Source: Pegea sp. RAD2-039 (taxonomy: Eukaryota; Chordata; Thaliacea; Salpida; Salpidae). From it: a DNA stretch of 64,000 nt. Positions 12,197 through 63,990 of the stretch are shown here, in pieces (position 1 is the stretch's first letter; every line of letters starts with the position of its first letter). Where the stretch lies: the NCBI GenBank assembly GCA_034620365.1, contig JAQGEQ010000189.1, positions 1 to 64,000 on the forward strand, in the 5' to 3' direction. Under the pieces are notes generated by a model that searched no databases, had not been told where the DNA came from, and saw only the letters and a program-made list of their open reading frames with translations. The position numbers and the translations under genes were made by a program.

Positions 12197-12406
12197 CTAA
12201 GAACGCTTACAAATGGCGATAAGATGCTTACATTTGGGACATAGATGGTGGACATCTTTAAGGTCATTAATGCAAAATGGGATCAGACATAAACAAAAAA
12301 ATATATTTAGATAATTCAAATAAAAACTTTTAAGTAAAAAGTAGCTAAAAGAAGTCATTACAGAAAAATTCTTTGACGACAATTTATTAGCAAATTCACA
12401 CCACAA
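12197..12406 (-). pseudogene. LITAF C-terminal half fused to box A
   Basis: A 69-codon frame on the minus strand. Its last 33 codons (12295-12197) are the second half of a LITAF domain: CLCLIPFC, then HHLCPKCKHLIAICKRS. LITAF proteins are membrane-associated endosomal zinc-binding proteins with two CxxC halves bracketing a hydrophobic segment. The first CxxC half is missing. The N-terminal part of the frame (MWCEFANKLSS...) is simply translated box A repeat. A second copy lies at 31253-31462 (+). The two differ at a few amino-acid-changing positions, so constraint is not evident. I treat both as captured gene fragments. Confidence 0.6.
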
Positions 12407-14179
12407 ACACTAAACTACTAGAAATTTATATAAAAGAACAAATCAGCGCACAATCGATTTTGAAATTTTTATTAGCGATATATATTTCAATTTTTGTAGT
12501 TGAACAAGTTTCAACAAACTAATTCAAGATTAAACTTAAATTATCTTCCTTTATTTAAAAGATTGGATTATTTGCTAAATCAATATTCAGTAATTTTTAA
12601 TTGTTACGTTTACACAACGTTTAACGATAAAATAATATTTTCTTTAAATTTTTAATCTTTAGTAAAAGTTAGAATTAGTTTGATTGATTTAAAAAAAATT
12701 AAAGTTAAATAAAAAAGTTAGATAATTAAAAAATATTTTAAATATTTTAAATGAAAAAAAACTATTTTCTATTCTATATAATAACTATTTAGATATTTCA
12801 TAAAACCAGAAGAATTAAAGTAAACAGACAAATTGTCACTAAGTATTGATAACCAACTATCTAACATCCCTCTTATGACTCTTATGAGCTTTAACTACCT
12901 CTTTTATTTTATATCTAATTTACAAGTTTAATTTATATGAATATCAAAATAAATACAAATAAAATACAAGTAAATTCTAACTATTCAAAATTTCAAAATT
13001 CAATATTCCAAAATTTTTGACGTAAAACAAAAAATAATTAAAAAGCTTAAAATTATACTTTTTAGGAAACCGATTGCAGAGAAACCAACAATAATTTTGT
13101 GAATCTAGTTTTGGTAAATATTAATTTGATTCTAAACTTAAATTCTTTTGTTTTATCAAGTATCTAAATAGTTATTCTATAGAAAACGAAATACTTTTTT
13201 TCACTTCAAACATTTGAAATAATTTGTACAGATCTTACTTTTTTATTTAACTTTGTTGTTAAATCAATCAAACTAATTTTAATTTTTACTAAAGATTTAA
13301 AAATTTAAAGAAAATATTATTTTATTGTTAAATGCTATGTAAAAACGTACAAATTAAAATCCAAATATTTATTCAACAAACAATCCTTTCTAGCAAATAA
13401 ACAAAAATAATTTAGGTTTAATCTTAAATTGATGAGTTGAAACTTGTTCAACTCCAAAATTTAAGAAAATTTATATATTTATTGATCGCTTAAGTCGCTG
13501 ACGTTTTACTTTATATAAATTTCTAGTAGTTTAGTGCTTGTAATGTAAAATTGCTAATAAATTAGTTGGTCAAAGGAAAATTTTCTGAATTTCTTTCAAT
13601 TAGATACGTTTTTCTTTAAAGTTTCTATATAAGTCATCTAAATATCAAAAGACACAAATTAAAAACTAATAAATTTTTTATTTCAAAACAGAAAAAGATA
13701 CTTTTGATTTAATAATTGAAATAGTCTGTTGAGTCGTATTCAACTTTAAAAATAACAACTTATTTAAGTGAAGAAGACGCTTTTACGCTGATTTGTTTCT
13801 TTATACAACATTTTATTAGTTTAGTGTTTGTGGTGTAGAATTGCTAATAAATTATTTCGTCAAAAAATTTTTCTGAATTGACTCCTGTTAACTACTTTTG
13901 ACTTTAAAGTTTTTATTTGTATAATCTAAATAAGACTTTTTAATCAATTTTCTTACTTAATAGAATAGAAGAGATAGGAAAATATCAGAATGTGCAACTT
14001 TGAGACAAGTGAATAGAGAGTTTGAAGATAAAATTTATATTATATTATAAATTATATTTGAATCTTTAAATTGAGAGATGTTTATAATCTTAATAAAGGC
14101 ACTAAACAAATCTAGCAACACATTTACGTATGCGGTAAAAATTTTAATAGATTTAGTTTCCTGCTTTACTACTTGTTCG

Positions 14180-14910
14180 TCAATCAAACAAACAACTAGC
14201 GTAGCAATACCCAACATAATGGCCTTTTTAAAAAGTTACTTTACTTTTATTGTTACTTTTTTAATATTAGTCAATATAAGGTGATTACACCCTTTCAATT
14301 TCAAAGTTAAAAGGTTTTAAAAAAAGATATTATAAGGAACGATTGGAAAAACTTATAGAAGAAATTTTAAATAGAATTTTGTAATAACTTTCAAAGAAAT
14401 TTTATTTAGTATTAAACATAATTTCAAAATTACTAATAATTATTGAAATTTAAGTCATTTCAACATAAACTTTTGACATTTCAAACAAACAAAATAAATA
14501 AATTTTTAATAGTACTTTATTTAAAAAAACATTTTATAAATTCAACTTACAAAAACTGTAAATAATAAATATGAATTATAATATCTAATTATTTCAAATC
14601 AATAAGCCTATCCAAATAAAAAAGATATTTAAACTATAGAATTGAAAAGAACTAAAATAGTAAAATATCAAGAAGAACATCAAAGTCAGAAATAAATTTG
14701 AACTTAAATAAAAATATATCCTGTATGTCTGCATAAAAAAAGATTTCATTTGAAACTATTATATAAAAACTGTTCTTTAAAAGAATTGTTAAAAAAACAT
14801 TTAGAATTGAGAAAATAAATATTTCGGCCAATTTTGGTCTTTCTCTAGAACTGCGCATAATTTTTTAAAGCTTCCAAAAAAAAAAGAGAAATTTTCAACA
14901 AGAATTAAAC
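14180..14910 (-). repeat. Z segment after RAD54 fragment
   Basis: This roughly 0.9-kb segment follows the truncated RAD54 exon B in copies R1, R2, R4 and R8. On its sense strand it starts attctttttgaaaatttc and includes gcgcagttctagagaaag. It ends near gacgaacaagtagtaaagc, where an 18-nt match to the RAD54 SSKAGG codons occurs. Here that match is interrupted by two substitutions (ggaaac for ggaggc). Confidence 0.6.
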
Positions 14911-15159
14911 AATTCGTTCTACGATGTTATATCTTTTTTTAATAGTCATATCTATCTAATCTTACATATCCGTATCTGACAACAAAATGTTGATTGAAAT
15001 TCATCATCAACAAGTTCTCTACCTCCTCATACGGCACAATTTTTCACATAAATCGAGCGTTTGCGTGTAATTTGATACAATCACGTATTTATCATCATTT
15101 ATTGAACGAGTTGCTGCCATCAATGAATTCACTAACATCATTTTACCAGATAAATCCGG
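14911..15159 (-). pseudogene. RAD54 fragment R1
   Basis: Exon 'A' of RAD54 (15159-15023: LSGKMMLV..., [17 protein letters not shown]) and the 5' part of exon 'B' (from 14975) survive, separated by an approximately 47-nt intron. The acceptor before exon A has lost its AG (reads ...tat before CCGG). Exon B carries a small deletion and is cut off after the VER codons. A 15-nt remnant of a tRNA-Glu 3' end lies just upstream. R1 is the inverted partner of R8 (57154-57400). Confidence 0.75.
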
Positions 15160-16644
15160 ATAAAAAAAAATTGTGTAAAAAAAAAGTTCCCAGACCGGAA
15201 TATCAAAAGTGTATTTTACCGCATACGTAAATGTGTTGCTAAATTATTTTAGTGCCCTTCTTATAAATATAAATCTCTTGATATAAAGATTCAAATATAA
15301 TTTTATCATCTTGTTACTTTGATCTTCAAACTCTCTAACCACTTGTCTCAAAGTTGCATCATTCTGATATTTTCCCATCTCTTCAATTATATTAAATCAT
15401 AAATTTAATATAAAAATATTTTTAGATAATTTAGATAAAAACGTTTAAGTAAAAAGTAGCTAGCAGAAATCAATTCAGAAAATTTTTTTTGACGAAATAA
15501 TTTTGTAGCAAATCTTCACCACAAACACTAAACTAATACAAATGTATATAATGAAACAAATCCGCGTAAAATTATTCGATGTAATCATTGACTTCTATAA
15601 GATTTGAATTTTAGAGTTGAATAAGATTCAACAGACTATTTCAAAATAAAACTTAAATTTTCCTCCTTTATTTGTTAGAAAGGATGATTCATCAAATTAA
15701 CACTTGTTAGTTTTTTATTTGTGCTTTTACACAGAACTTTAAAACTTTTAACTGCTTCCAGCAAAATAGTGAAATTGTTAAACGATTTTTAAATCAATGT
15801 TTTGTTGAGGGTAATCTAGTTAGGTTTTGGATCATAATATCGATTCAATATACAACAACTCCTTCTATTACTAACTGAGGTTTTATTTAGAGACATTTTA
15901 AGTAAAGTGATTTAACTTTTAAATATTAAATTAAAAAATATAAACAAATTTTTCATAATAATTATTAGTAAAGACAAAACTAATAATGTGTTTACAAACA
16001 GTTAGTTAAAGAGCTTACCTCTAATTTTAAGGTTGCTGGTTTTCAAAATTTGATAATCAGTCTCTAGGCTCTCTTGAAATACTTTTAGTATAAATAAATT
16101 AGCATAAACTGCTCACGCACAGTGAAGCACCTATATGAGTAGTAAATGAAAGTTTGTTTGAAAACAGTTGCTGATAATTTTATTAATAACTTTTAGATTT
16201 TCAAAATTATATAACACCAGTAAGTAAATACAAACAGCAACAATTTGGTAAAATCATGATAGTTTAAAGCTATTAAACATTTAATACTACGTTTTATAAA
16301 CAGGCGTCCACCATTCTATCAAAGTAGGTCATTAGTTGGGTCCTGCTAGCAGTAAAGTTGGTTTGTAAATGCAAGTTTTTCTATAGTTGATGCTACTCAG
16401 CTTAAAGAATACTCTAAAAGCATATTTGTTTGTTTCTACATTAAAGATATTGTCCGTTTTTTTCTCATTTATTTATGATTTTAGAATATAAAAAAGAGAT
16501 TATAAATAAACTTATTTCAATGAGTTTAATTCTGGTGACATTTGGCTGACTGCTAGTTGTAAAGAAAGTATTTTTCGAACAACAACTACTAGTAAGCTAC
16601 AACTTTTATGTTAAGTCTATTAATATGTTGATGATTAATTCTAG

Positions 16645-17081
16645 AAATTGTGTAAAAGTGTAAAGTACGCCAGAAGAAGAAAGGTTATTGTTGTAAAACC
16701 AAAACATGTGGACTCAGTAAAACAAAACAAGAGGTTTAGATGTCGTGTTGTATCTTCATTATAACCTTCCACGATTGTTGAGTTTGTTGAAGAAATAAAA
16801 CATATGAACTGCTGTACAAGGTAAGTTAAGTTGTAATTGATCTATTGTTTGCTTCCATACTAACTTATTTGATTGGTGGATGAAAATATACATTAATTAC
16901 AAACAGAATTCCGACCTATTCCATCTCATTTTCTAATTGTTTTGTTGATTACAATTTGGAAGAAAGTACCAGCCAAGTGACCAATAAAGAAACTGGAAGT
17001 CCGTGTACAGAAGGCATTTTTCAGCAGTTGGTTAAATCGTCAAAATTTTTAATTAGATTGAATAATAAATTTAAAAGTTGA
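16645..17081 (+). pseudogene. unidentified two-exon fragment with cysteines
   Basis: Exon 1 is 16645-16820 (KLCKSVKYARRRKVIVV..., then FRCR), with one in-frame TAA at 16762-16764, then IVEFVEEIKHMNCCTR up to a perfect donor (aag/gtaagt). After an 86-nt intron, exon 2 (16907-17081) continues in phase: IPTYSISFSNCFVDYNLEES..., SPCTEGIFQQLVKSS, to TGA. The phase-consistent splice and protein-like composition argue for a real gene fragment. I do not recognise the family. The cysteines and lack of membrane segments would suit a secreted protein, but that is a guess. Inverted copies lie at 55265-55669 and 62530-62660. Confidence 0.5.
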
Positions 17082-17599
17082 AATTATTTTTTTTTGTAAA
17101 AAATGAGAAATAAATCTGTTGGATTATTAACTTCGTTTAAAAGTAGTTTTTATGTTTTGATTAAAATATCAAACAAGAAATAGATAGAATACTAAACATG
17201 ACTTCATGATGAATATATTTATAAACCTTATTTTCTATAACTATTAGTGGCTTTGATGTTATTTTTTCTTACCAAAAGTGAATTAGAATTGATTACATTC
17301 AGTCAGTTACCCTATTATTGTTGCTTTAACAAGTTTTTTTATCTGTATGCGGTAGAAAACTACGAGCTAAAAACTGATATAAAAATAAATTACAAAAACA
17401 TAATAAGGAAAACAATAACTTTGTTGAAAAAGTAAATTATTAAAATGATGAAATTAAAACTCAATACTATCATCTTACTTAATAAAACATTTGTTTGAAA
17501 AATTACTTATATTAATTACTGAAACAATTTTCACTTTTTTTAAACATTATTTAGATTTATAACAAAATATTATCTTATTTAAACGTTAATTGAATATAT

Positions 17600-18500
17600 A
17601 TCATTAATATAAATATAATTTGACCAATTACTAATAAGCGTATTTAGTGGTTCTATGTTCTTTTTGAAGACTTAATAGTAGTAGTAGTCAAGTCGATTAC
17701 TGAAATTTCTAACAATTTTAAACTAGATGATATATCTTTTTAGACACTTTAATTTTTCAATGAAAATAATTGTTGATTTTTTATATAATATTGAGGCCAA
17801 TTACATTTAATTCATGTTTGAGTATTTGTAAGGTAGTTAAAAACTGAGTAACTGTTTATAATTTTTATTATTTATATTTTATAAATTTTCACGAAAGTAA
17901 GGCTTCCAAATTTAAATATTATTAAGATAAGTAAATCATATAAAAAATAAACTTTTAATTTACATTTTCTAACGCATCCAAAAGTAAAAACTCGAATAAG
18001 AAAGTTTATAATTATCTTCTCATTCAGCAAAAAATTATATTCTGAATATTGTTTGACTTATTTTAAGGTATAAAAGCCAATATTGTTAATTTAATAAAAA
18101 GAAATTCAGAGAAATCAAAATATTGTTGAAATTTTAATTGCTTTAATTTTCTTTAATTTATATTTAACATCATGTATTAGTATCAAGTTTTATTGTATAG
18201 TGTGGTATTCAATATTTTAATTTATATTTAACATCATGTATTAGTCTTCATTTACAGATAGTTTTGATTGTGGTGTGAATTTGCTAATAAATTATCTCGT
18301 CATAAAAATTTTCTGAGTTGACTTCTGTTAGCTACTTTTGACTTTAAGTTTTTACTCTAGAGTATCTTGATATCCTTTTATTAGCAATTTGTTTTTGTTT
18401 TTAAATGTTTAAAAATAATAAATATATATATATAATATTTAATATATATATTTTTATCGAATCATATAATTCTCAAACCAGACATTCATTTGTTTTGTAT
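17600..18500 (+). repeat. AT-rich duplicated segment with (TA)n
   Basis: This segment recurs directly at about 31860-32480 and inverted at about 61750-62400 and, in part, at 54430-54680. It includes the phrase aacatcatgtattagt twice and a short (TA)n run at 18421-18450. No coding content is recognised. Confidence 0.6.
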
Positions 18501-19191
18501 TTATTTGTATCAAAATTTTTAACATAAAAGAAAACATAATTAAAAAGCTTAAAATTATATTTTTAGAAAACCGATTGCGGAGAAACCAACAATAATTTTG
18601 TAAATCCAGTTTTGGTAAATATTAATTTGATCTTAAACTTAATTTCGTTTGTTTTTATGAAATAGCTAAATAGTTATTCTATAGAATACTAAATAGTATT
18701 TTTTCACTTGAAACATTAAAAAGAATTTGTACAGATCTTACTTTTTTATTTAACTTTAATTTTGTTGCTAAATCAATCAAACTAATTCTAGCTTTTACTA
18801 AAGATTAAAAATTTAAAAGAAACATTATTTTATTGTTAAATGTTGTGTAAATGTACAAAATAAAGACTATTAAATGTTGATACAGCAAATAAGCCATTCT
18901 TTTAAATAAAGGAAAATAATTTATGCTTAATTTTGAAATAGCTTGTTGAAACTTGTTCAACTCCAAAAATTTTAAAGTTCACAATGTGGTTGATAAACAA
19001 TTTTACGCTGATTTGTTTCTTTATATAAGTTTTACTAGTTTAGTGTTTGTGGTGTAAATTTGCTAAAAAATTATTTCGTAAAAAAAATTATCTGAATTGA
19101 TTTCTGCTAGCTACTTTTTACTTAAACGTTTTTATCTAAATTATCTAAAAATATTTTTATAATAGATTTATGATTTAATATAATCGAAGAG

Positions 19192-19287
19192 ATGGGAAAA
19201 TATCAGAATGATGCAACTTTGAGACAAGTGGTTAGAGAGTTTGAAGATCAAAATAACAAGATGATAAAATTATATTTGAATCTTTAA
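19192..19287 (+). other. 31-codon micro-ORF, intact
   Basis: This begins MGKYQNDATLRQVV and ends YLNL before TAA. It lies about 160 nt downstream of box A, after a pyrimidine-rich stretch. It is the same reading as copies elsewhere in the field. Differences between copies are mostly amino-acid-changing, so translation is not shown. Confidence 0.4.
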
Positions 19288-19364
19288 ATCAAGAGATTTA
19301 TATTTAAAAGAAAGGCACTAAAATAATTTAGCAGCACATTTACGTATGCGGTAAAATACACTTT

Positions 19365-19380
19365 TGATATTCCCGGTCTG
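19365..19380 (+). pseudogene. tRNA-Glu 3' end remnant
   Basis: The sequence cccggtctgggaa, with flanks, is the T-arm/acceptor end of the tRNA-Glu gene seen complete at 49944-50015. It is joined abruptly to 'acacttttgat'. The same join occurs at about 15185-15205 (-), 28203-28220 (+), 34424-34445 (-) and 57112-57126 (+). Confidence 0.6.
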
Positions 19381-19408
19381 GGAACTTTGTTTTAACAATT
19401 TTTTTCAG

Positions 19409-19653
19409 CCCGATTTATCTGGTAAAATGATGTTAGTGGATTTATTGATGGAAGCAACTCGTTCAATAAATGATGATAAAAACGTGATTGTATCAAATTA
19501 CACGCTCGATTTATGTGAAAAATTGTGCTGTATGAGGAGGTAGAGAACTTGATGATGATGAATTTCAATCAACATTTTGTTGTCAGATATGGATATGTAA
19601 GATTAGATGGAAGTATGACTATCAAAAAAAGATCTAACATCGTAGAACGATTT
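19409..19653 (+). pseudogene. RAD54 fragment R2
   Basis: Exon A (19409-19539) starts right after a good acceptor (tttttcag). It has an in-frame 6-nt loss that turns NYTQTLDL into NYTLDL, and an Arg-to-Cys change before MRR. After an approximately 47-nt intron, exon B starts at 19587 ([14 protein letters not shown]...) and stops matching after the VERF codons at 19653, where the Z segment begins. No helicase motif VI exon follows, so this cannot encode an active RAD54 ATPase. Confidence 0.8.
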
Positions 19654-20560
19654 GTATAATTCTTTTTGAAAATTTCTGTTTTTTATTTGGAAGCTTTAAA
19701 AAGATTCTGCGCAGTTCTAGAGAAAGACCAAAATTGGCCGAAATAATTATTTTCTCAATTCTAAATGTTTTTTTAACAATTCCTTTAAAAATCAGTTTTT
19801 ATATAATAGTTTCAAATTAATTCTTTTTTATGCAGACAAACAGGATATATTTTTATTTAAAGTCAAATTTATTTTTAACTTTGATGTTCTTCTTGATATT
19901 TTTTTTCAGTTCTTTTCAATTCTATAGTTTAAATATCTTTTTTATTTTAATAAGTTTTTGATTTGAAATTTTTAGATATTATAATTTATATTTATTATTT
20001 ACAGTTTTTGTAAGTTGAATTTATAAAATGTTTTTATAAATAAATTACCATTAAAAATTTATTTATTTTTTTTACTTAAAATTTCAAAAGTTTACTTTGA
20101 AATGACTTCAATTTCAATAATTATTAGTAATTTTGAAATTATGTTTCATACTAAATAAAATTTCTTTGAAAGTTATTACAAAATTCTATTTAAAATTTCT
20201 TCTTATAAGTTTTTCCAAGCGTTCCTTACAATATCTTTTTTTAAAAGCTTTTAACTTTGAAATTGAAAGGATGTAATCACTTTATATTGACTAATATTAA
20301 GAAAATTTAAGGTATTGTCAACTAATTATTTGAAAACCTTACCGTATAGTTATGAGAAAGTTTGCGTTGCGTAATTTTTCATTAATTCCATTTTTAAATT
20401 ATGTATGAATTGAAAGCTGCTTACAAAGTAAATGTTGAAATGTTTTGAATTATTATTTATTTTAATAAGTAACTTTTTAAAAAAGCCATTTTGTTGGGTG
20501 TTGCTACACTAGTTGTTTGTTTGTTTGACGAACAAGTAGTAAAGCAGGAGGCTAAATCTA
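19654..20560 (+). repeat. Z segment after RAD54 fragment R2
   Basis: The segment starts at the break in RAD54 exon B. It ends with gacgaac followed by the 18-nt aagtagtaaagcaggagg, which also encodes the SSKAGG end of RAD54 exon B. It looks like replacement of 36 nt of exon B by about 0.9 kb, although a deletion history would give the same picture. Related copies are at 28496-29400, 57401-58320 and 14180-14910 (-). Its 3' part alone also follows the RAD54 3' UTR at 25740-26540, 39630-40430 and 50840-51290. Confidence 0.55.
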
Positions 20561-21379
20561 TTAGAATTTTACCGCATACGTAAATTTGTTGCTAAGTTTA
20601 TTTAGTGCCTTTATTAATACTATAAACATCTCATTATTTAAAGATTCAAATATAAGTTTATCCATTCAATTGTATCAATTGTCAATTCAGAAATTTTTTT
20701 TTGACGAAATAATTTATTAACAAATTTACAAAACAAACACTAAACTAATAGAAATCTTTATAAAGGAACAAATCTGCGTAACGGTGTTTTAAAATGTTTC
20801 AAACAATTTAATTTTTGGAGTTGAACAAGTTTCAACAGACTATATGTTCATTAAACTTAAATTATCTTTCTTTATTTTAGAAAAGAATATTCGTAGAATC
20901 AACATTTAGTAGTTTTCAATTTGTAACTTTCACAGCACTTTAAAACTTTTAACTGTTTCCAGTAAATGATATAAGTTATTTTTTCAATCAATGTTTGATT
21001 GATGGTAATCTAGTCAGGGTTTGGTTCATAATATCGGCTCCATATCCAGCTGCTCCTTCTACTACTAACTGAGGCTTTATTTGGCGACATTTTAGGTAAA
21101 GTGATTTAACTCCTAAAAATTTACTATCCAAACATCAATTATAGTGTTGCCCACAGCAGCTTTTTATTGGCTCTTTTCTTCATTTACACCACAGGTATGA
21201 TTCAGACTATTAACAGTTAAGGAGTTCAAACTGTTATGAGTTTCATTCACTAATTTCTAAATACTTTTCTTATGAAAACAATTTTTATATTATATAAACA
21301 AGTTTACTTCATAATCTACCGACCAATTTCTCTTGTAGCTTCTATTGAATCTTCAAATGATTATTTTTTTTATTTTCAG

Positions 21380-21673
21380 ACTCCATCTACCAATATTTTT
21401 CTTTTTTCCCATCAATTTGAATTTCTTTTTCAAAAATCTCCCAGTGATCAGCTGTTGTCCTATCTCCATCAGTGGTTGTATTTCTCAATCAAGTCTTATA
21501 AACATCCTGATACAACAGATAAATATGAAACGCAGATGTGTCTTGAAAGATGCATAGATGATGATCAACAATCAGATGACTACAATACAAATTTGGATTT
21601 AGAAACAGATCTTGATGTGTGCTTACATAAAACAAGAAAAAATTTAATTACAAGAATTATTCACCCTACTTAG
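21380..21673 (+). pseudogene. unidentified exon U1, copy a
   Basis: It opens after acceptor ttttcag (21379) and reads TPSTNIFLF..., LLSYLHQWLYFSIKSYKH, CLERCIDDD, LDLETDLDVCLHKTR, ITRIIHPT, to a stop at 21671-21673. Composition is clearly protein-like, and the frame is kept in copies b, c and d. No donor is obvious at the end. The next coding-looking piece is the 17-codon exon at 21858-21908. I do not recognise the protein. Confidence 0.5.
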
Positions 21674-21857
21674 CTAAATGGATAAAGCCAAAATTATCGT
21701 TTATCATGAAAACTGATTATTTCAATTTCTTCTTTTATCTAAATTTTAATTTAATTTGGTTTTAAGTTTTAGACTAAAGTATTTATTATAATATAGAATT
21801 GATTATTTAAGATCTAAATACCAGTTACTGATGTAATTATTTAATAAAATTTTGCAG

Positions 21858-21908
21858 GATTTAGAAGATTATTGGATTGAAACTGGTTTGATTGCTTTCA
21901 GACAAAGA
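21858..21908 (+). pseudogene. 17-codon exon (DLEDYWIETGLIAFRQR)
   Basis: A 51-nt exon with acceptor tttgcag and donor gtaaac, phase 0 at both ends. It follows U1 in every block that has U1: also 46660-46710 (+), about 37657-37707 (-) and a degraded version near 52700-52750 (-). It is probably from the same unidentified gene. Confidence 0.5.
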
Positions 21909-23599
21909 GTAAACCATTTTAATTTATTTTTAAGAACTTGCTAAACTGTCAGATTTATATACAAGAAGATAAAATACTTTATTCATTTAAAAGATTTGAA
22001 ATAAGTTTTACAGATTTAGAATTTTTTATTTAACTTTGATTTTTACTCAAACTATTAAAACAAACTTTCATTTATACAAAAGTTTTAACATAAGAGAAAA
22101 CATAATTTAAAAACTTAAAATTATCTTTTTAGGAAACCGATTGCAGAGAAACCAACAATAATTTTGTGAATCTAGTTTTGGTAAATATTAATTTGATCTT
22201 AAACTTAATTTCGTTTGTTTTTATGAAATATCTAAATTGTTATTCTATAGAATACAAATTACTTTTTTTTCACTTGAAACATTTTATGAAATTTGTACAG
22301 ATCTAACTTTTTTATTTAACTTTAATTTTGTTGTTAAATCAATCAAACTAATTTTAATTTTCATTAAAAATTTTAAAATTTAAAGAAAATATTATTTTAT
22401 TGTTAAATGCTGTGTAAAAACGTACAAATTAAGAAGTTCCAAATGTTGATTCAGGTAATATTCATTTCTTAAAAATAAAAAGAGATAATTTAGGTTCAAC
22501 CTTGAATTTGTTTGTTGAAACTTGTTCAATCTCAAAAATTTAATTGAAAAAATCTTGAATAAAACCTTTACGCAGATTTTTTAGTCTATAAAAATTTCTA
22601 CTAGTTTAGTGTTTGTGGTGTAGATTTGCTAATAGATTTTCATCAAAAAAATAAATAAAAATAAATTGTGTTGTTCGAACTGCATATCAGAAGTGTATTT
22701 TACCGCATACGTAAATGTGTTGCTAAATTATTATAGTGTCCTTCTTAATACTATAAACATCTCGTGATTTAAAGATTCAAATATAATTTTATCTTCATGT
22801 TATTTAGATCTTCAAGCTCTCTAACCGCTTGTCTCAAGGTTGCTTCATCTTGCTATTTTCCAATCTTTTATCCATTTATATTATATCAAATATTTTTAAA
22901 AAAAATGGTATTTAGATAATTTAAATAAAAACTTTTATGTAAAAAGTAGCTAACAGGAGTCAATTCAGAAAATATTTTTATAACGAAATGATTTATTAGC
23001 AAATTTATACCGCAAACACTAAACTAATAGAAATTTATATAAAGGAACAAATCAGCGTAAAATTGTATTTCATATGAGTAGCTATTACTATAATTTTTAG
23101 AGTTGAACAAGTTTCAACAGACTATTTCAATAATTATTCTAACTTTCTTCTTTAATTCGATTACAATGATTATTTGGTGAATCAAACTTTAGTAGTTTTC
23201 AATTTGTACCTTTACACATTATCAATATTATTGCTAATTCTTATGAAACCATTACAATCTTCAGTAAACTGAAATGTTTAGAATTTAACAAGTATCAGTC
23301 AAACAAAACGAAAACTTTGAACTTAAAACCATTAAATCTGCTTGAAAAGGTTTTGAATAAAGTTATAAAAAAAAATTGGAATACTTTTTAGTAATAAGAA
23401 ACAGAATAAAATAAGCTTTAAAATTATAAATTAATAAAATAGATTGTCTCAATAATATAAAGATATCTACTTCATATAAAGTATGTAATTATTTAACCTA
23501 TAATTCTTTATTTATGTCATTTAAAAATATATTAAATTGAATAAAATCAGAGAATTCAAGAAAACAATTTCTATTTTTCCATTTAATTTCATAGAAAGA

Positions 23600-24712: not shown

Positions 24713-24908
24713 ATCAAGCGATGTTTATGGTATTAATAAACGCACTATAATAATTTAGCAACACATTTACGTATGCGGTAAAAAACATTTCTGATATGTA
24801 GTTCAAACAACACAGCTTTTCATCTATTTTAAGATTGAAAAAGTTCAATCTAAGATACAAGGATAATAATGGTCTAGTAGTTCATCTTTATCCTCACAAA
24901 TATTCACG

Positions 24909-24937
24909 GTGCCCGGGTTCGATTCCCGGTCTGGGAA
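24909..24937 (+). pseudogene. tRNA-Glu 3' half
   Basis: This has T-arm and acceptor strand only, with intact GGGTTCGATTCCC. The 5' half is gone: upstream sequence (cctcacaaatattca) joins directly into the anticodon stem. The duplicate at 49681-50015 keeps the intervening about 270 nt and the whole tRNA, so this copy suffered a deletion. Confidence 0.8.
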
Positions 24938-51499: not shown

Positions 51500-53640
51500 C
51501 AAAATCTAACAAACATATTTGCACATATGAAGGATTTCTTGAACATTTTTACGCTGATTTTTCAGTTTATATAAATTTCGATTAGTTTAGTGTTTGTGGT
51601 GTAAATTTGCTAATAAATTATTTCGTAAAAAATTTTCTGAATTGACTCCTGTTAGCTACTTTTTACATAAAAGTTTTTATCTGAATTATATAAATACCAT
51701 TTTTTTTAGCAAATTTATGATTTAATATAAATGGATAAGAGATAAGAAATTAGGAAGATGAAGCAACTTTGGGACAAGTGGTTAGAGAGTTTGAAGATCT
51801 AAGTAACAAGAAGATAAAATTATATTTGAATCTTTAAATCAAGAGATGTTTACAGTATTAAGAAGGACACTATAATAATTTAGCAACACATTTACATATG
51901 CGGTAAAATACACTTCTGATATACAGTTCGAACAACACAATTTATTTTTATTTATTTTTTTGATGAAAATCTATTAGCAAATCTACACCACAAACACTAA
52001 ACTAGTAGAAATTTTTATAGACTAAAAAAAATCTGCGTAAAGGTATTATTGAAGATATTTTCATTTTATTTTTGAGATTGAACAAGTTTCAACGAACAAA
52101 TTCAAGATTGAACCTAAATTATCTCTTTTTAGTTTTAAGAAATGAATATTCCCTGAATAAACATTTGGTAGTTTTTAATTTGTACGTTTTTACACAGCAT
52201 TTAACAATAAAATAATATTTTCTTTAAATTTTAGATTTTTAATAAAAATTAAAATTAGTTTGATTGATTTAACAACAAAATTAAAGTTAAATAAAAAAGT
52301 AAGATCTGTTCAAATTTTTTCAAATGTTTGAAGTGAAAAAAAAAGTATTTTGTATTCTATAGAATAATAATTTAGATATTTCATAAAAACAAAAGAAATT
52401 AGGTTTATATCAAACTAATATTTACTAAAACTAGATTCACAAAATTATTGTTGGTTTCTCCGCAATCGGTTTCCTAAAAATATAATTTTAAGCTTTCAAA
52501 TAATGTTTTCTCTTATGTTAAAACTTTTGTATAAATGAAAGTTTGTTTTATTAGTTTAATTAAAAATCAAAGTTAAATCAAAAATTATAAATCTGTAAAA
52601 CTTATTTCAAATTATTTAAATAAATAAACTATTTTATCTTCTTGTGTATAAATCTGACAGTTTAGTAAGTTCTTAAAAATAAATTAAAATGGTTTACTCT
52701 TTGTTTGAAAGCAATCAAACCAGTTTCAATCTAATCATCTTATAAATCCTACAAGATTTTATTAAATAATTACATCATTAACTGGTATTTAGATCTTAAA
52801 TAATCAATTCTATATTATGATAAATACTTTAGTCTAAAACTTAAAACCAAATTAAATTAAAATTTAGATAAAACAAGAAATAGAAATAATCAGTTTTCAT
52901 GATAAACGATAATTTTGGTTTTATCCATTTAGCTAAGTAGGGTGAGTAATTCTTGTAATTAAATTTTTTCCTGTTTTATGTAAGCACACATCAAGAGCTG
53001 TTTCTAAATCCAAATTTGTATTGTAGTCATCTGAATGTTGATCATCATCTATGTATCTTTCAAGACACATCGGCGTTTCATATTTATCTGTTGTATCAGG
53101 ATGTTTATAAGACTTGATTGAGAAATACTTGATGGAGATAGGACAACAACTGATCACTGGGAGATTTTTGAAAAAGAAATTCAAACTGATGTGAAAAAAA
53201 ATTTTGAAGAATGGAGTCTGAGATTAAAAAAAATAATCATTTGAAGATTCAATAGAAGATACTACAAGAGAAATTGGTCGGTAGAATATAAAGTAAACAT
53301 GCTTATATAATATAAAAATTGTTTTTATAAAAAAGTATTTAGAAATAAGTGAATGAACCTCATAACCGTTTGAAACCCTAAACTGTTAATAGTCTGAATC
53401 ATACCTGTGGTGTAAAGGAAGAAAAGACCCAATAAAAAGCTGCTGTGGGCAACACTATAATTGATCTTTGGATGTTAAATCTTTAAAAGTTAAATCAATT
53501 TACCTAAAATGTCGCCAAATAAAACCTCAGTTAGTAGTAGAAGGAACTGCTGGATATGGAGTGGATATTATGAACCAAAACCCTGACTAGATTACCATCA
53601 ACAAAACATTGATTGAAAAATAACTTAAATCATTTACTGG
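51500..53640 (-). repeat. block X5 (head-to-head box A block)
   Basis: Inverted relative to X1/X4. Box A at 51585 (+) and 51984 (-), junction about 51925-51975, degraded 17-codon exon near 52700-52750, U1 copy d at 52933-53184. Confidence 0.75.
52933..53184 (-). pseudogene. exon U1, copy d
   Basis: Open from NLPVISCCPIS to ITHPT, with an internal loss of about 10 codons (HQWL region) compared with copies a-c. The downstream 17-codon exon is damaged (stop and altered acceptor). Confidence 0.45.
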
Positions 53641-55669: not shown

Positions 55670-57153
55670 CTAGAATTAATCATCAACATATTAATAGACT
55701 TAACGTAAACGTTGTAGCTTACTAGTAGTCGTTGCTCGAAAAAAACTTTCTTTTCAACTAGCAGTCAGCCAAATGTAACCATCATTATACTCATTGAAAT
55801 AAGTTTATTTATAATCTCTTTTTTATATTCTAAAATCATAAATAAATGAGAAAAAAACGGACAATATCTTTAATGTAGAAACAAACAAATATGCTTTTAG
55901 AGTATTCTTTAAGCTGAGTAGCATCAACTATAGAAAAACTTGTATTTACAAACCAACTTTACTGCTAGCAGGACCCAACTAATGACCTACTTTGATAGAA
56001 TGGTGGACGCCTGTTTATAAAACGTAGTATTAAATGTTTAATAGCTTTAAACTATCATGATTTTACCAAATTGTTGCTGTTTGTATTTACTTACTGGTGT
56101 TATATAATTTTGAAAATCTAAAAGTTATTAATAAAATCATCAGCAACTGTTTTCAAACAAGCTTTCATTTACTACTCATATAGGTGCTTCACTGTGCGTG
56201 AGCAGTTTATGCTAATTTATTTATACTAAAAGTATTTCAAGAGAGCCTAGAGACTGATTATCAAATTTTGAGAACCAGCAACCTTAAAATTAGAGGTAAG
56301 CTCTTTAACTAACTGTTTGTAAACACATTATTAGTTTTGTCTTTACTAATTATTATTATGAAAAATTTGTTTAGATTTTTTAATTTAATATTTAAAAGTT
56401 AAATCAGTTTACTTAAAATGTCGCCAACTAAAACCTCAGTTAGTAATAGAAGGAGTTGTTGTATATTGAATCGATATTATGATCCAAAACCTAACTAGAT
56501 TACCCTCAAAAAACATTGATTTAAAAATCGTTTAACAATTTCACTATTTTGCTGGAAGCAGTTAAAAGTTTTAAAGTTCTGTGTAAAAGCACAAATAAAA
56601 AACTAACAAGTGTTAATTTGATGAATAATCCTTTCTAACAAATAAAGGAGGAAAATTTAAGTTTTATTTTGAAATAGTCTGTTGAATCTTATTCAACTCT
56701 AAAATTCAAATCTTACGGAGGTCAATGATTACATCGAATAATTTTACGCGGATTTGTTTCATTCTATACATTTGTATTAGTTTAGTGTTTGTGGTATTAA
56801 TTTACTACAAAATTATTTCGTCAAAAAAAATTTTCTGAATTGATTTCTGCTAGCTACTTTTTACTTAAACGTTTTTATCTAAATTATCTAAAAATATTTT
56901 TATATTAAATTTATGATTTAATATAATTGAAGAGATGGGAAAATATCAGAATGATGCAACTTTGAGACAAGTGGTTAGAGAGTTTGAAGATCAAAGTAAC
57001 AAGATGATAAAATTATATTTGAATCTTTATATCAAGAGATTTATATTTATAACAAGGGCACTAAAATAATTTAGCAACACATTTACCTATGCGGTAAAAT
57101 ACACTTTTGATATTCCGGTCTGGGAACTTTTTTTTTACACAATTTTTTTTTAT

Positions 57154-57400
57154 CCGGATTTATCTGGTAAAATGATGTTAGTGAATTCATTGATGGCAGC
57201 AACTCGTTCAATAAATGATGATAAATACGTGATTGTATCAAATTACACGCAAACGCTCGATTTATGTGAAAAATTGTGCCGTATGAGGAGGTAGAGAACT
57301 TGATGATGATGAATTTCAATCAACATTTTGTTGTCAGATACGGATATGTAAGATTAGATAGATATGACTATTAAAAAAAGATATAACATCGTAGAACGAA
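57154..57400 (+). pseudogene. RAD54 fragment R8
   Basis: Inverted partner of R1. Exon A 57154-57290 is open but the preceding AG acceptor is lost (…tat before CCGG). Exon B from 57338 has the same small deletion after RLD and ends at the Z segment. The matching defects show that R8 and R1 split after these mutations arose. Confidence 0.8.
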
Positions 57401-60222
57401 TTGTTTAATTCTTGTTGAAAATTTCTCTTTTTTATTTGGAAGCTTTAAAAAATTATGCGCAGTTCTAGAGAAAGACCAAAATTGGCCGAAATATTTATTT
57501 TCTCAATTCTAAATGTTTTTTTAACAATTCTTTTAAAGAACAGTTTTTATATAATAGTTTCAAATGAAATCTTTTTTTATGCAGACATACAGGATATATT
57601 TTTATTTAAGTTCAAATTTATTTCTGACTTTGATGTTCTTCTTGATATTTTACTATTTTAGTTCTTTTCAATTCTATAGTTTAAATATCTTTTTTATTTG
57701 GATAGGCTTATTGATTTGAAATAATTAGATATTATAATTCATATTTATTATTTACAGTTTTTGTAAGTTGAATTTATAAAATGTTTTTTTAAATAAATTA
57801 CCATTAAAAATTTATTTATTTTTTTTACTTAAAATTTCAAAAGTTTATTTTGAAATGACTTAAATTTCAATAATTATATGTTATTTTGAAATTATGTTTC
57901 ATACTAAATGAAATTTTTTTAAAAATTATTACAAAATTACATTTAAAATTTCTTCTATAAGTTTTTCCAAGCGTTCCTTACAATATATTTTTTTAAAAGC
58001 TTTTAACTTTGAAATTGAAAGGATGTAATCACTTTATATTGACTAATATTAAGAAAATTAAGGTATTGTCAAAGAATTATTTGAAAAACTGACCGTATAG
58101 TTATGATAAAGTTTGCGTTGCGTAAATTTTTCATTAATTCCATTTTTAAATTATGTATGAATTGAAAGCTGCTTACTAAGTAAATGTTGAAATGTTTTGA
58201 ATTATTATTTATTTTAAAAAGTAACTTTTTAAAAAACGTTTTTAAAAAAAAAAACCATTTTGTTGGGTATTGCTACACTAGTTGTTTGTTTGGTTGATGA
58301 ACAAGTAGTAAAGCAGGAAGCTAAATCTAGTAAAATTTTACCGCATACGAAAATGTGTTGCTAGATTTTTCTAGTGCCTTTATTAAGATTATAAACATCT
58401 CTCAATTTAAAGATTCAAATATAATATATAATATAATATAGATTTTATCTTCAAGCTCTCTATTCACTTGTCTCAAAGTTGCACATTCTGATATTTTCCT
58501 ATCTCTTCTATTTTATTAAGTAAGAAAATTGATTAAAAAATCTTATTTAGATTATTTAAATAAAAACTTTTATGTAAAAAGTCGCTAAAAGCAATCAATT
58601 CAGAAAATATTTTTATGACGAAATAATTTATTAGCAATTCTACACCACAAACACTAAACTAATAGAATTTTTTATAAAGAAACAAATCAGCGTAAAAGCG
58701 TCTTCATCACTTGGACGTGTTGTTATTTTTAGAGTTGAATACATTTCAACAGACTATTTCAATTATTAAATCAAAAGTAACTTTTTCTGTTTAAAATAAA
58801 ACATTTATTAGTTTTTAATTTGTGTCTGTTGATATTTAGATGACTTATATAGAAACTTTAAAGAGAAACGTATCTAATTGAAAGAAATTCAGAAAATTTT
58901 CCTTTGACCAACTAATTTATTAGCAATTTTACACTACAAGCACTAAACTACTAGAAATTTATATAAAGTAAAACGTCAGCGACTTAAGCGATCAATAAAT
59001 ATATAAATTTTCTTAAATTTTGGAGTTGAACAAGTTTCAACTCACTAATTTAAGATTAAACCTAAATTATTTTTGTTTATTTGCTAGAAAGGATTGTTTG
59101 TTGAATAAACATTTGGATTTTAATTTGTACGTTTTTACACAAGATTTAACAATAAATAATATTTCCTTTAAATTTTAAAATCTTTAATAAAAATTAAAAT
59201 TAGTTTGATTGACTTAACAACAAAATTAAAGTTAAATAAAAAAGTAAGATCTGTACAAATTTTTTCAAATGTTGGAAGTGAAAAAAAAAGTATTTTGTAT
59301 TCTATAGAATAACAATTTAGATATTTCATAAAAACAAACGAAATTAAATTTAAGATCAAATTAATATTTACCAAAACTAGATTCACAAAATTATTGTTGG
59401 TTTCTCTGCAATCGGTTTCCTAAAAAATATAATTTTAAGCTTTTTAATTATTTTTTGTTTTACGTCAAAAATTTTGGAATATTGAATTTTGAAATCTTGA
59501 ATAGTTAGAATTTACTTGTATTGTATTTTTATTTATTTTGATATTCATATAAATTAAACATGTAAATTAGATATAAAATAAAAGAGGTAGTTAAAGCTCA
59601 TAAAAGTCATAAGAGGGATGTTAGATAGTTGGTTATCAATACTTAGTGACAATTTGTCTGTTTACTTTATTTCTTCTGGTTTTATGAAATATCTAAATAG
59701 TTATTATATAGAATAGAAAATAGTTTTTTTCACTTAAAATATTTAAAATACTTTTTAATTATCTAACTTTTTTATTTAACTTTAATTTTTGTTAAATCAA
59801 TCAAACTAATTTTAATTTTTATTAAAAAATTTAAAATTTAAAGAAAATATTATTTTATCGTTAAACGTTGTGTAAACGTACCAATTAAAAACTACTGAAT
59901 ACTGATTTAGCAAATAATCCTATCTTTTAAATAAAGGAAGATAATTTAAGTTTAATTTTGAATTAGTTCGTTGAAACTTGTTCAACTCCAAAAATTAAAA
60001 TAAACATCGCCAATAAAAATTTCAAAATCGATTGTACGCTGATTTGTTTCTTTATATAAATTTCTTGTAGTTTAGTGTTTGTGGTGTGAATTTGCTAATA
60101 AATTGTCGTCAAAAAATTTTTCTGTAATGACTTCTTTTAACTACTTTTTACATAAAAGTTTTTATTTAAATTATCTAAATCTATTTTTTTTTGCAAATTT
60201 ATGATTTAATATAATTGAAGAG

Positions 60223-60318: not shown

Positions 60319-60758
60319 ATCAAGAGATGTTTATGGTATTAATAAACGCACTATAATAATTTAGCAACACATTTACGTATGCGGTAAAATACACTTCTGA
60401 TATGTAGTTCAAACAACACAGCTTTTCATCTATTTTAAGATTGAAAATGTTCAATCTAAGATACAAGAGTAATAATGGTTTAGTAGTTCATCTTTATCCT
60501 CACAGATATTCAAACAAGATTTTATAACTTTTTATCTGAGATTTTTTCGCAATTATATTTCAATATAGAAATAATTAATTTATAAAAATTTGATTTTTTG
60601 CATCTTTTTTGACACTTTAAAGTAACTTTTTAGAAATGAGTTGAAATTTGCAACAATTTTAAATTATTTTTTTAGCATCGTTTCATAATTTTTTTTATTT
60701 TTAAGTTAAATTAGAACATTTTGTTGAATAAATTCTCAATAAAAATAGTAAACGCAAG

Positions 60759-60830
60759 TCCCAGGTGTTCTGGTAGGTAGGATTCTTGGCTCTCACGCAC
60801 GCGGCCGGGGTTCGATTCCCGGTCTGGGAG
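60759..60830 (+). pseudogene. tRNA-Glu (CTC), degenerate
   Basis: The acceptor and T-arm are good, but the D-arm is altered (GTTCTGGTAGGTAGG) and the anticodon stem no longer pairs (CTTGG against GCACG). The RAD54 exons that follow tRNA-Glu elsewhere are missing here. Sequence goes straight into another repeat unit. Confidence 0.75.
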
Positions 60831-61149
60831 CTTCTTTTTTTCACAATTTTTTTGTGTTGCTTCTCACAGTGCCTTTCTTAATAATAGGAATATATCTTGA
60901 TTTAAAGATTCAAATTTAATTTTATCTTCTTGTTATTTTGATCTTCAAACTCTCTAACCGCTAGTCTCAAACTTGCATCATCTTCCTAATTTCTTATCTC
61001 TTATCCATTTATATTTAATCAAATATTTGCTAAAAAAAATAGTACTTAGATAATTTAAATAAAAACTTTTATGTAAAAAGTAACTAAAAGGAGTCAATTC
61101 AGAAAATATTTTTATAACGATATAATTTATCAGCAAATTTACACCACAA

Positions 61150-63990
61150 ACACTAAACTAATATAAATCTATATAAAGGAAAATAACTGCGTAAAAGTAC
61201 TCTGCTAATATTTCAAACATTTAATTTTTAGAGTTGAACAAGTTTCAACAAGCTATTTCAAAATTAAGCATAAATTAATTTCCTTTATTTAAAAGGAAGG
61301 ATTATTTGCTGTATCAACATTTAATATTCTTTATTTTGTACATTTACACAACATTTAACAATAAAATAATATTTCCTTTAAATTTTTAATCTTTAGTAAA
61401 AATTAAAATTAGTTTGATTGATTTAACAACAAAATTAAAGTTAAATAAAAAAGTAAGATCTGTACAAATTCTTTTTAATGTTTCAAGTGAAAAAATACTA
61501 TTTTGTATTCTATAGAATAACTATTTAGATATTTCATAAAAACAAACGAAATTAAGTTTAAGATCAAATTAATATTTACCAAATCTAGATCCACAAAATT
61601 ATTGTTGGTTTCTCCGCAATCGGTTTTCTAAAAATATAATTTTAAGCTTTTTAATTATGTTTTCTTTATGTTAAAAATTTTGATACAAATAAATACAAAA
61701 CAAATGAATGTCTGGTTTGAGAATTATATGATTCCATAAATATATATATATATATATTATTTTTAAATATTTAAAAAACAAACAAATTGCTAATAAAAGG
61801 ATATCAAGATACTCTAGAGTAAAAACTTAAAGTCAAAAGTAGCTAACAAAAGTCAACTCAGAAAATTTTTATGACGAGATAATTTATTAGCAAATTCACA
61901 CCACAATCAAAACTATCTGTAAATGAAGACTAATACATGATGTTAAATATAAATCAAAATATTGAATACCACACTATACAATAAAACTTGATACTAATAT
62001 ATGATGTTAAATATAAATTAAAGAAAATTAAAGCAATTAAAATTTCAACAATATTTTGATTTCTCTGAATGTCTTTTTATTAAATTAACAATATTGGCTT
62101 TTATACCTTGAAATAAGTCAAACAATATTCAGAATATAATTTTCTGCTGAAAGAGAAGATAATTATAAACTTTCTTATTCGAGTTTTTACTTTTGGATGC
62201 GTTAGAAAATGTAAATTAAAGTTTATTTTTTATACGATTTACTTATTTTAATAATATTTTAATTTGGAAGCCTTACTTTCGAGAAAATTTATAAAATATA
62301 AATAATAAAAATTATAAACAGTTACTCAGTTTTTAACTACCTTACAAATACTCAAACATTAATTTAATGTAATTGGCCTCAATATTAAATATTAATTATT
62401 ATTAATATATCATTTATTTATTTATTTATTTATTAATATCATTATTAAATAACAGATTTATTTCTAATTTTTTACAAAATAAAAATTAATTTTAACTTTT
62501 AAATTTAATATTCAATCTGATTAAAAACTTAATTATAAAAAACTTTTTCAAAAGACATCTAAACCTCTTGTTTTGTTTTACTGAGTTCACATGTTTTGGT
62601 TTTACAACAATAACCTTTCTTCTTCTGGCGTACTTTGCACTTTTACATAATTTCTAAAATTAATCTTCAACATATTAAAAGATTTATTATAAACATTGTA
62701 GCTTCCTAGTAGTCGTTGTTACACTCGAAAAAACTTTCTTTACAACTAGCAGTCAGCCAAATGTCACCATAATTATACTCATTGAAATAAGTTTATTTAT
62801 AATCTCTTTTTTATATTCTAAAATCATAAACAAATGAGAAAAAAACGGACAATATCTTTAATGTAGAAACAAACAAATATGCTTTTAGAGTATTCTTTAA
62901 GCTGAGTACCATCAACTATAGAAAAACTTGTCTTTACAAACCAACTTTGCTGCTAACAGCACGCAACTAATTACCTACTTTGATAGAATGGTGGACGCTT
63001 GTGTAGAAAAAGTAATCTTAGATGTTTAATAGCTAAAAGCTATCATAATTTTACCAAATTGTTGCTGTTTGTATTTACTCACTAGTTATTTTAATTTTGA
63101 AAATCTAAAAGTTATTAATAAAACTATCACCAACCGTTTTCAAACAAACTTTCATTTACTACTCATATAGGTGCTTCACTGTGCGTGACCGGTTTATGCT
63201 AATTTATTTATACTAAAAGTATTTCAAGAGAGCCTAGAGACTGATTATCAAATTTTGAGAACCAGCAACCTTAAAATTCGAGGTAAGCTCTTTAACCTAC
63301 TGTTTGTAAACACATTATTAGTTTTGTCTTTACTAATTATTATTATGAAAAATTAATTTAAATTTTTTAATTTGATATTTAAAAGTTAAATCACTTTACG
63401 TAAAATGTCACCAACTAAAACCTCAGTTAGTAGTAGTAGAAGGAGCTGTTGTGTATTGAAACGATTTTAAGAAGCAAACCCTGACTAGATTAACATCAAC
63501 AAAACATTGAATGAAAAATTGTTTTAAATTTCACTATTTTGCTGGAAGCAGATAGAAGTTAAGGTTCTATGTAAAGGCACAAATAAAAAAAACGACCAAG
63601 TGTTGAATTGATGACTAATCCTTTCCAACAAATAAAGGAAAATATGTTAAGTTTAATCTAGAAATAGTGTGTTGAATCTTATTCAACTCTAAAAATTAAA
63701 CTTTAGAGAAGTAATGAAGATACTTTTACGCTGATTTATTTCAGTATATAAATTTCGATTAGTTTAGTGTTTGTGGTGTAAATTTGCTAATAAATTATTT
63801 CGTCAAAATATTTTCTCAATTGACTCCTGTTAGCTACTTTTGACTTTAAAATTTTATTTAAGTTATCTAAATATATTTTTTTTTAGCGAATTTATGATTT
63901 AATATAATTGAAGAGATGGGAAGATATCAGAATGATGCAACTTTGAGACAAGTGGTTAGAGAGATTGAAGATCAAGATAACAAGAAGATA
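61150..63990 (-). repeat. further inverted copies of 17-19 kb and 15.4-17.1 kb segments
   Basis: 61150-62400 is inverted relative to about 17800-19070. 62450-63850 is inverted relative to about 15500-17100 and so runs parallel to 55190-56800. A gap of about 280 nt, relative to 55281-55560, removes exon 2 of the cysteine-containing fragment, leaving part of exon 1 at 62530-62660. The boundary is marked by an (ATTT)n run at about 62410. Confidence 0.65.

Follow-up and report, generated by a model that had tools for sequence, protein, structure and literature searches.

A multicopy array of predicted snRNA-type genes with a common 3' module and divergent 5' segments in the salp Pegea sp. RAD2-039

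U7 snRNA consists of a free 5' segment, an Sm-type site that differs from the canonical one, and a single 3' stem-loop, and SmY RNAs and the U RNAs of herpesvirus saimiri are small Sm-class RNAs outside the spliceosome. U7 snRNA is given as about 60 nt long (PMC7026596), the GGTA donor of spliced-leader RNA is given as conserved (PMC3795323), and nematode type-I piRNA loci are described as clustered, with a short variable RNA behind a promoter derived from snRNA genes (PMC6436959). In this study, we analyzed a repeat field in Pegea sp. RAD2-039 (assembly GCA_034620365.1); the window is the whole stretch of DNA that was analyzed, positions 1 to 64,000 of contig JAQGEQ010000189.1 (hereafter C102; 250,794 bases). 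Judging from sequence comparison, each copy of the repeated box is probably an snRNA-class RNA gene, and the predicted RNAs have a 3' module in common and strongly different 5' ends. The snRNA-type identity of these genes is well supported, and we infer the start, the end and the production of the RNA together with its Sm ring.

The window contains 34 box copies, 19 on the plus strand and 15 on the minus strand in the polarity of a preliminary description of this DNA, which had counted about 33 in both orientations over more than 50 kb; our count omits a 38-base row at position 3,915 that was judged spurious. These snRNA-type gene units span positions 12,306 to 63,871 and are arranged in direct blocks, whose offsets of 24.80, 8.83 and 7.40 kb reproduce the earlier values of about 24.8, 8.84 and 7.39 kb, and in numerous inverted blocks, likewise reported before (for example, one of 3,640 bases with 95.5% identity). 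The field formerly placed at 12,390 to 63,990 is real and extends beyond 63,990: C102 has 138 boxes, beginning at 12.3 kb and continuing up to its right end, and a second field on contig C247 begins at about 157 kb and reaches at least 294 kb. The exact 17-base core of the box occurs 137 times in the genome (0 times for the reversed control). Orientation switches between adjacent boxes are more frequent than by chance (93 of 135, compared to 67.7 ± 5.8 with shuffled signs; 136 boxes). Compared blocks of C102 and C247 are about 1-9% different and colinear only piecewise, and an allelic-haplotype reading was considered.

On the opposite strand, the best-conserved 17 bases of the box, ACCACAAACACTAAACT, are the proximal sequence element (PSE) of the U6 and U2 genes of the same genome. 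With up to four mismatches in 17 allowed, the PSE CCCACAAACACTAAACT or variants of it precede 19 of 20 fetched U6/U2 genes (the 20 comprising nine of 15 U6 matches and 11 of 19 U2 matches), the snRNA starting 57-64 bases past the PSE start; the sole gene lacking it is a U2 match. PSE-like sites (at most four mismatches) number 159 on C102, L028 and L029, 95 of which are exact. Over 133 boxes, mismatch in the core is below 3% at 11 of the 17 positions and below 10% at 16, compared to block means of 17-30% in the surroundings, and of 126 boxes, 105 have the TATA at a single offset from the PSE and 16 have it displaced by one base. Since the same PSE precedes the U6 and U2 genes at constant spacing, the box promoter is shown to be one that would act outward. 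Thus, the promoter nature ascribed to the box in the preliminary description stands, and its polarity has to be reversed. The PSE-TATA gap is 10 bases in the boxes, 10-12 in the U2 genes and 15-17 in the U6 genes; because it fits U2 and not U6, the box genes appear to be transcribed by RNA polymerase II. No 3' box common to box genes and U2 was recognized by eye. Given the outward snRNA PSE at its core, the field is read as an array of small-RNA genes instead of the non-autonomous element family suggested earlier.

The proposed unit would comprise, in order, an upstream module (module E), the PSE, the 10-base gap, TATATAA, the start (predicted about 31 bases past the TATA), the 5' segment, an Sm-type site, a stem-loop, and a 3' end predicted immediately past it. 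Predicted RNAs in the window measure 51-66 nt. The commonest Sm-type site is AAUUUUUGGA and the 17-base 3' stem-loop is GUUGAACAAGUUUCAAC; the predicted RNAs would carry an Sm ring. All parts are kept in 95 of 117 scored genes on C102 and in 23 of 26 scored in the window; at least one part fails in 22 of the 117, and some copies are therefore probably dead. A strict Sm pattern is satisfied by 94 of 126 boxes, and many of the 32 that fail still have a U-run when inspected by eye. All six hairpin pairs are present in 106 of 117 genes, with weak covariation that mainly involves pair 7/11 (C-U 84, U-A 15, U-U 14). At gathering thresholds, Rfam returned only tRNAs from the window and from 14 of 19 further C102 loci.

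Part scoring in the window placed predicted Sm-class RNAs on the plus strand at 12457-12518 (PSE at 12399), 15575-15635 (PSE at 15517), 20787-20839, 23066-23121, 40791-40847, 45586-45641, 47872-47927, 58701-58753, 58990-59044 and 61200-61252, and on the minus strand at 13725-13777 (PSE at 13835), 24369-24424, 26880-26930, 27778-27833, 31141-31202, 32996-33048, 43831-43885, 49162-49213, 51478-51543, 56678-56738, 59967-60028 and 63668-63720. Another is predicted on the minus strand at 18942-18997, with its PSE at 19054 (core 19038-19054, minus strand).

The box genes resemble multicopy U snRNA genes with PSE promoters in that their PSE/TATA spacing and start distance match those of the genome's U2/U6 genes, they are multicopy, and they have an Sm-type site and a 3' stem-loop. 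However, their predicted RNAs have no Rfam snRNA match, are very short and are hypervariable in the 5' segment, and the array has mixed orientation and trapped gene fragments. The likeness to U7 snRNA lies in the length of about 60 nt, the free 5' segment, the Sm-type site and the single 3' stem-loop, whereas the box RNAs differ from it in their canonical Sm-type site, variable 5' segment and about 200 copies, and the Rfam U7 model had no match up to E=5 in window positions 12200-24600. SmY and herpesvirus saimiri U RNAs are comparable because the box RNAs, too, are predicted small Sm-class RNAs outside the spliceosome, but the latter match no Rfam family; to our knowledge, the copy number and 5' diversity of the former are far below those of the box family. 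Such an array was not described in the open-licence literature searched, and the RNA gene family would be an undescribed one if the RNAs are made.

The 5' segment, 20-48 nt long, is the least conserved part of the unit. In 31 non-overlapping close pairs its divergence is about threefold that of the flanks (0.148 vs 0.049; p=0.002), and between clusters the 5' segments are as unlike as shuffled letters (0.496 vs 0.517). The approximately 200 copies fall into about 29 classes, many with several copies. A search for the 5' segments elsewhere on C102 and in three C247 stretches found further box copies and otherwise short, AT-rich, chance-like matches. Loss of constraint and slippage could account for the hypervariability. 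We propose that in an Sm-RNP the exposed 5' segment would pair with targets in a U7-like manner, that high dosage would be maintained, and that diversification may proceed via duplication and exchange. By analogy, we weakly infer that a guide-like Sm-RNP may be the most likely function. In its full form, this proposal describes an animal RNA guide repertoire of about 200 Sm-class genes with a fixed promoter and a fixed 3' Sm/hairpin module, in which the 5' guides outpace their flanks via mutation and cassette exchange and upstream control regions are swapped at the PSE; we advance it tentatively, as a possible but doubtful reading.

Module E is conserved and has two islands, located about 190 and 300 bases upstream, and each of its 89 matches on C102 lies upstream of the gene closest to it. 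One conserved copy, located by E matches at 19160-19370 (minus strand), is a possible distal element of the gene with its PSE at 19054. In a short ORF of E (MGKYQND...), mismatch hardly differs among the three codon positions (0.067, 0.079 and 0.078). Linkage of upstream and downstream classes is lost at the core, for which we prefer conversion halting at the end of homology over the core acting as a recombination site. The preliminary description had asked for a genome-wide search to tell a confined box from a dispersed one: among the 100 core sites listed of the 137, 92 are on C102 and eight on C247, and the 3' module is also present, with a divergent promoter, on C23, C238, C271, C178 and C237. 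Because the flanks on these five further contigs are unrelated, the family is regarded as dispersed. All 14 fetched loci of this second subfamily have a CCACAA-type PSE, a gap of exactly 10 bases, TATATAA and the identical 17-base hairpin; their flanks appear unrelated in an alignment of seven of the 14, and their PSE was picked up at a loose threshold and has 5-7 differences from the U6 PSE in 17 positions.

The field also contains pieces of other genes, and the gene-fragment trap envisaged earlier is borne out. The RAD54 3' exons with an intronic tRNA-Glu form a trapped copy at 38422-39581 (plus strand; 93.4% identity to the native stretch). A RAD54 exon fragment lies at 14911-15198 (minus strand), and other RAD54 pieces lie at 19369-19653, 24905-25703, 28204-28496, 33427-34443, 49802-50780, 57115-57402 and 60616-60853. 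The last exon of LITAF, truncated by a gene unit, is at 12188-12298 (minus strand; second copy at 31361-31471), an LRR-gene fragment with a tRNA-Ile/Asp block resembling the right flank of the C247 field is at 41526-43051 (plus strand), and tRNA-Asp plus tRNA-Ile are at 35592-35747 (minus strand; second copy at 42990-43145). The sources of these pieces (RAD54 3' exons, the RAD54 intron tRNA-Glu, LITAF, the LRR gene and tRNA-Ile/Asp) are neighbors of the C247 field. Outside the array, a kinase gene in two overlapping frames (4045-7856, plus strand) is read as STK36/Fused. It seems that the field grew beside RAD54-LITAF-STK36-EndoU via repeated direct and inverted duplication, taking up pieces of its neighbors, and the notion of a rearrangement-prone locus describes this growth fairly.

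Two other readings of the trapped RAD54 material were rejected. One was a spliced chimeric gene transcribed from an inward promoter via E into RAD54 exons, which was attractive because splice-like signals line up when inspected by eye. The evidence against it comes from exon a: its within-copy changes comprise 26 non-synonymous and three synonymous ones against an expected ratio of 3.77:1, and exon a therefore shows no coding constraint. Exons b, c and d have a mild synonymous excess (2.1-2.4:1 vs 3.3-4.4:1 expected), with one, one and three stop-making variants, respectively. An initial comparison with the native gene looked more constrained because pairwise differences, with the native branch included, had been counted. 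A dual-strand antisense or hairpin-RNA locus directed at RAD54 was abandoned once the box polarity was reversed.

Several alternative explanations were weighed. The array may be a degenerate one, of former RNA genes or selfish duplicating units that are mostly functionless and whose conservation reflects recent duplication and conversion. The 22 broken copies of 117, the homogenization of upstream modules over unrelated genes with its boundary at the PSE, and the trapped fragments and weak-scoring tRNA copies agree with this. However, the PSE, gap, TATA, Sm-type site and hairpin are invariant between clusters whose 5' segments are as unlike as shuffled sequence, and again in the unlinked subfamily with different flanks; recent local duplication alone is therefore insufficient, and we consider a degenerate array unlikely. 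In piRNA-type loci as in nematodes, the short variable RNA after an snRNA-derived promoter would be the product, and the Sm/hairpin part would serve solely for termination. The box genes are similarly clustered and have a variable stretch of 20-48 nt immediately after the predicted start, and the nematode promoters are described as derived from SNAPc motifs, with precursors of about 28 nt (PMC6436959). A common 3' Sm/hairpin module, which the box genes share, is not mentioned in the text consulted on the nematode loci. Nematodes are reported to have more than 10,000 such loci, compared to about 200 copies here in about 29 classes, fewer and often multi-copy, and the genome is that of a salp and not of a nematode. 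Such loci are quite improbable here.

The high copy number, the snRNA-type promoter and the Sm-type site with a 3' stem-loop behind it are also features of spliced-leader RNA genes, which with many leader variants would make the 5' segment a leader exon plus donor. This is very improbable: a conserved leader or donor is missing, GGTA occurs in only 3 of 29 class examples and 5 of 117 genes, the would-be leader is the least conserved part, and a permissive search with the Rfam SL families matched nothing in window positions 12200-24600. The view of the preliminary description, an inward promoter or terminal-inverted-repeat element capturing gene fragments (a Pack-type transposon), can draw on the 46 of 135 intervals in which the arms flank cargo in inverted orientation, and on cargo that is partly host-gene fragments. 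Nevertheless, the core is an outward-facing U6/U2 PSE, unlinked copies have the promoter parts and RNA 3' module in common and little else, and neither a consistent outer end nor a target-site duplication was seen by eye at the part of the block ends inspected. In line with the earlier remark that no mobilizing enzyme is visible, Pfam matched no transposase among 20 proteins from the longer open frames. We regard a Pack-type element as scarcely credible.

For promoter-like boxes in repeat fields, a comparison of both strands with the genome's own snRNA promoters is needed. If the box RNAs are made, they would form an unannotated Sm-class family with a diversified free 5' end and 192 matches to the 3' module, compared to at least 19 for U2 and at least 15 for U6 in the same genome. 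The array would then lend itself to studying the growth of a small-RNA gene into a field of several hundred kilobases by a mixture of direct and inverted duplication, and to testing whether Sm-RNPs can serve as a guide repertoire.

The nested field of direct and inverted duplications that the preliminary description had proposed was borne out by self-comparison of the AT-rich window, which recovered 34 copies of the box (its repeated promoter-like unit) and the described direct and inverted blocks. The window forms the left quarter of contig C102 in a 105.7-Mb genome of 387 contigs; C102 carries 138 boxes, and the field runs from 12.3 kb to the contig end. A second field, on contig C247, begins at about 157 kb and extends to 294 kb or beyond. 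A 34-letter core pattern (at most three mismatches) matched 191 places in the genome, 121 of them on C102, with none for the reversed control; among the matches listed (about 100 of the 191), only C102 and C247 were represented.

Across 133 boxes, a 17-base core showed mismatches below 3% at 11 positions and below 10% at 16, with means of 17–30% in the surrounding blocks; a TATA motif and a palindromic element, GTTGAAACTTGTTCAAC, are also conserved. The spacing between TATA and core is identical in 99 of the 127 found (standard deviation 1.8, versus 4.5 between TATA and palindrome), and the segment between palindrome and TATA is entirely unlike from cluster to cluster. Among 92 boxes caught, falling into 24 clusters of which those with at least two members were compared, the between-cluster edit distance was 0.496 for this segment, 0.517 for shuffled letters and 0.139 for the promoter part. 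The other strand of the box reads, in order, CACCACAAACACTAAAC, TATATAA, the variable segment, AATTTTTGGA and GTTGAACAAGTTTCAAC, parts that correspond to a proximal sequence element (PSE), a TATA box, the 5' part of a predicted RNA, an Sm site and a 3' stem-loop. The box is predicted, with good confidence, to be an snRNA-type gene.

The genome's own U6 and U2 genes provide a test independent of the field, with at least 15 U6 and at least 19 U2 matches elsewhere in the genome. In the 20 upstream stretches read, the PSE (at most 4 of 17 mismatches) was present in 19 and missing from one U2 match, starting 58–64 bases before U6 genes and 57–58 bases before U2 genes. Where PSE and TATA were both recognised, they are separated by 15–17 bases in nine U6 genes and by 10–12 bases in 8 of 11 U2 genes; the boxes, with a gap of 10 in the same register, are U2-like. 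We consider this shared PSE decisive for the predicted outward, snRNA-type reading of the box. U6 and U2 genes are intermixed in common clusters on five contigs (C32, C39, C49, C81 and C114). Genome-wide, the PSE core (at most two mismatches) gave 391 matches, 126 of them on C102, and its reversed control 46; some of those off C102 may be other PSE-driven genes.

The Sm-type site and 17-base stem-loop that end the predicted RNA (at most three mismatches) matched 192 places in the genome, 100 on C102, with none for the control; among the matches listed, those off C102 lie on C247, C23, C238, C271, C178 and C237. All 14 loci fetched as a second subfamily (seven on C23, four on C238 and one each on C271, C178 and C237) share a CCACAA-type PSE, a TATATAA that follows it after a gap of 10, and the 17-base hairpin in unchanged form. 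This PSE differs from the U6 form by 5–7 mismatches and was detected at a loose threshold. The remainder of these loci looks unrelated to the field in an alignment of 7 of the 14, and their 5' parts are of different kinds, one being truncated and two, identical to each other, consisting of a long AT-rich stretch. The best case for function comes from the conservation of promoter and 3' module between clusters that are unlinked and in other respects dissimilar.

The layout of the field on C102 was examined by painting the contig with 25 modules, which covered 78% of the field. In the polarity of the preliminary description, opposite to that of the predicted genes, box-to-box intervals comprise 46 inward-facing, 47 outward-facing and 18 and 24 tandem ones. 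Module E, a conserved stretch near boxes, occupies 46 inward-facing and 25 tandem intervals and is absent from outward-facing ones. The spacers favour the opposite setting: modules X, Z, L, D and W together fell in outward-facing intervals in 36 of 41 cases, and module Y in 18 outward-facing and 11 tandem intervals. In gene polarity, all 89 module E matches on C102 lie upstream of the nearest gene. Module E (window 19160–19370 and 88 other places on C102) contains two conserved islands, GACAAGTGGTTAGAGAGTTTGAAGAT and TTTACGTATGCGGTAAA, possibly a distal element.

The 5' segment is the most changeable part of the predicted gene. In 99 gene pairs picked solely by close far flanks, mean divergence was 0.196 in the 5' segment versus 0.057 in three nearer flanks not used in picking; the segment was the more divergent in 79 pairs and the less divergent in 20. 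The 31 non-overlapping pairs gave 0.148 and 0.049, respectively (p=0.002), and other flank pieces of the same length 0.046–0.074. Since divergence is continuous from 0 to at least 0.5, small changes and whole replacements both seem to occur, and AT-rich slippage could be an added source. Among 14 units whose RAD54 cargo is the same, two unlike gene classes show no fixed upstream difference up to the PSE, and from the TATA region into and past the gene, between-class divergence exceeds within-class divergence. Upstream regions have therefore been exchanged or converted among genes, and the PSE marks the edge of shared homology.

The cargo can be traced to a neighbourhood on C247 (137–147 kb), where RAD54 with introns, one of which contains a tRNA-Glu, is followed by a complete LITAF frame and then by parts of the STK36 and EndoU blocks; this RAD54 copy looks like the native gene. 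The names RAD54, STK36 and EndoU are our own protein reading; Pfam confirms the helicase C-terminal, protein kinase and LITAF domains, and EndoU was not among the proteins searched. On C102, most of the 3' half of RAD54 is repeated, at depths of about 8–32, and nothing of the 5' half recurs except a short LINE-like stretch. The 900 bases behind RAD54 are present about 10–35 times and the LRR/tRNA block about 4–8 times; of the LITAF end there are up to four copies. Because these neighbouring pieces recur across C102, the field is concluded to have grown by local duplication and inversion. The STK36-like block exists in three copies, at window 2508–10563 (with a frame change near 6,800), at C102:154265–162321 (154–162 kb; 97.6% identical to the window copy) and at about 145–156 kb on C247 (read outside 147–150 kb; 98–99% identity in the stretch read). 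The tRNA-Glu(CTC) gene at C247:140183–140254 (3183–3254 of the stretch L036), within a putative intron of native RAD54, also has field copies; of the 12 stretches of the window that match RAD54, 7 begin inside it, so that it may be a point of breakage or recombination. Variation among RAD54-bearing units on C102 was 0.013 in exon a, 0.006 in its short intron and 0.045 in the adjacent post-RAD54 stretch, and a search for coding constraint in the C102 copies of exon a found none. Pieces of a LINE, so called after visual inspection of an RT-like open frame, lie at window 8385–9149, 2750–2881 and 229–340; one of 121 aa had no Pfam match. No transposase was found among 20 proteins searched with Pfam.

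At gathering thresholds, Rfam returned only tRNAs in the window and at 14 of 19 further C102 loci, and a permissive search of 12.4 kb gave two chance-level matches (E 1.1 and 2). A spliced leader was rejected by the donor criterion, GGTA occurring in 3 of 29 class examples. If the RNA is taken to start at TATA+31 and to stop 3 nt past the hairpin, its predicted length is 51–66 nt in the 23 intact-looking window genes. On C102, 117 PSE matches have both TATA and hairpin recognised, weaker copies having been dropped beforehand; 95 of them retain PSE, gap, Sm-type site (by a looser pattern than the strict one used on boxes) and at least five of six hairpin pairs, and 106 form all six. Hairpin covariation says little because the hairpin hardly varies. 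That the array is largely degenerate we judge improbable. U7 base-pairs with its targets through its free 5' segment, and a small Sm-RNP whose 5' segment is free and variable would point to U7-like pairing with targets. Alternatively, the 5' segment itself may give rise to a product; this would resemble nematode piRNA loci, whose promoters are described as deriving from snRNA promoters (PMC6436959). That the array is a diversified repertoire of guides is a tentative reading, with the odds against it.
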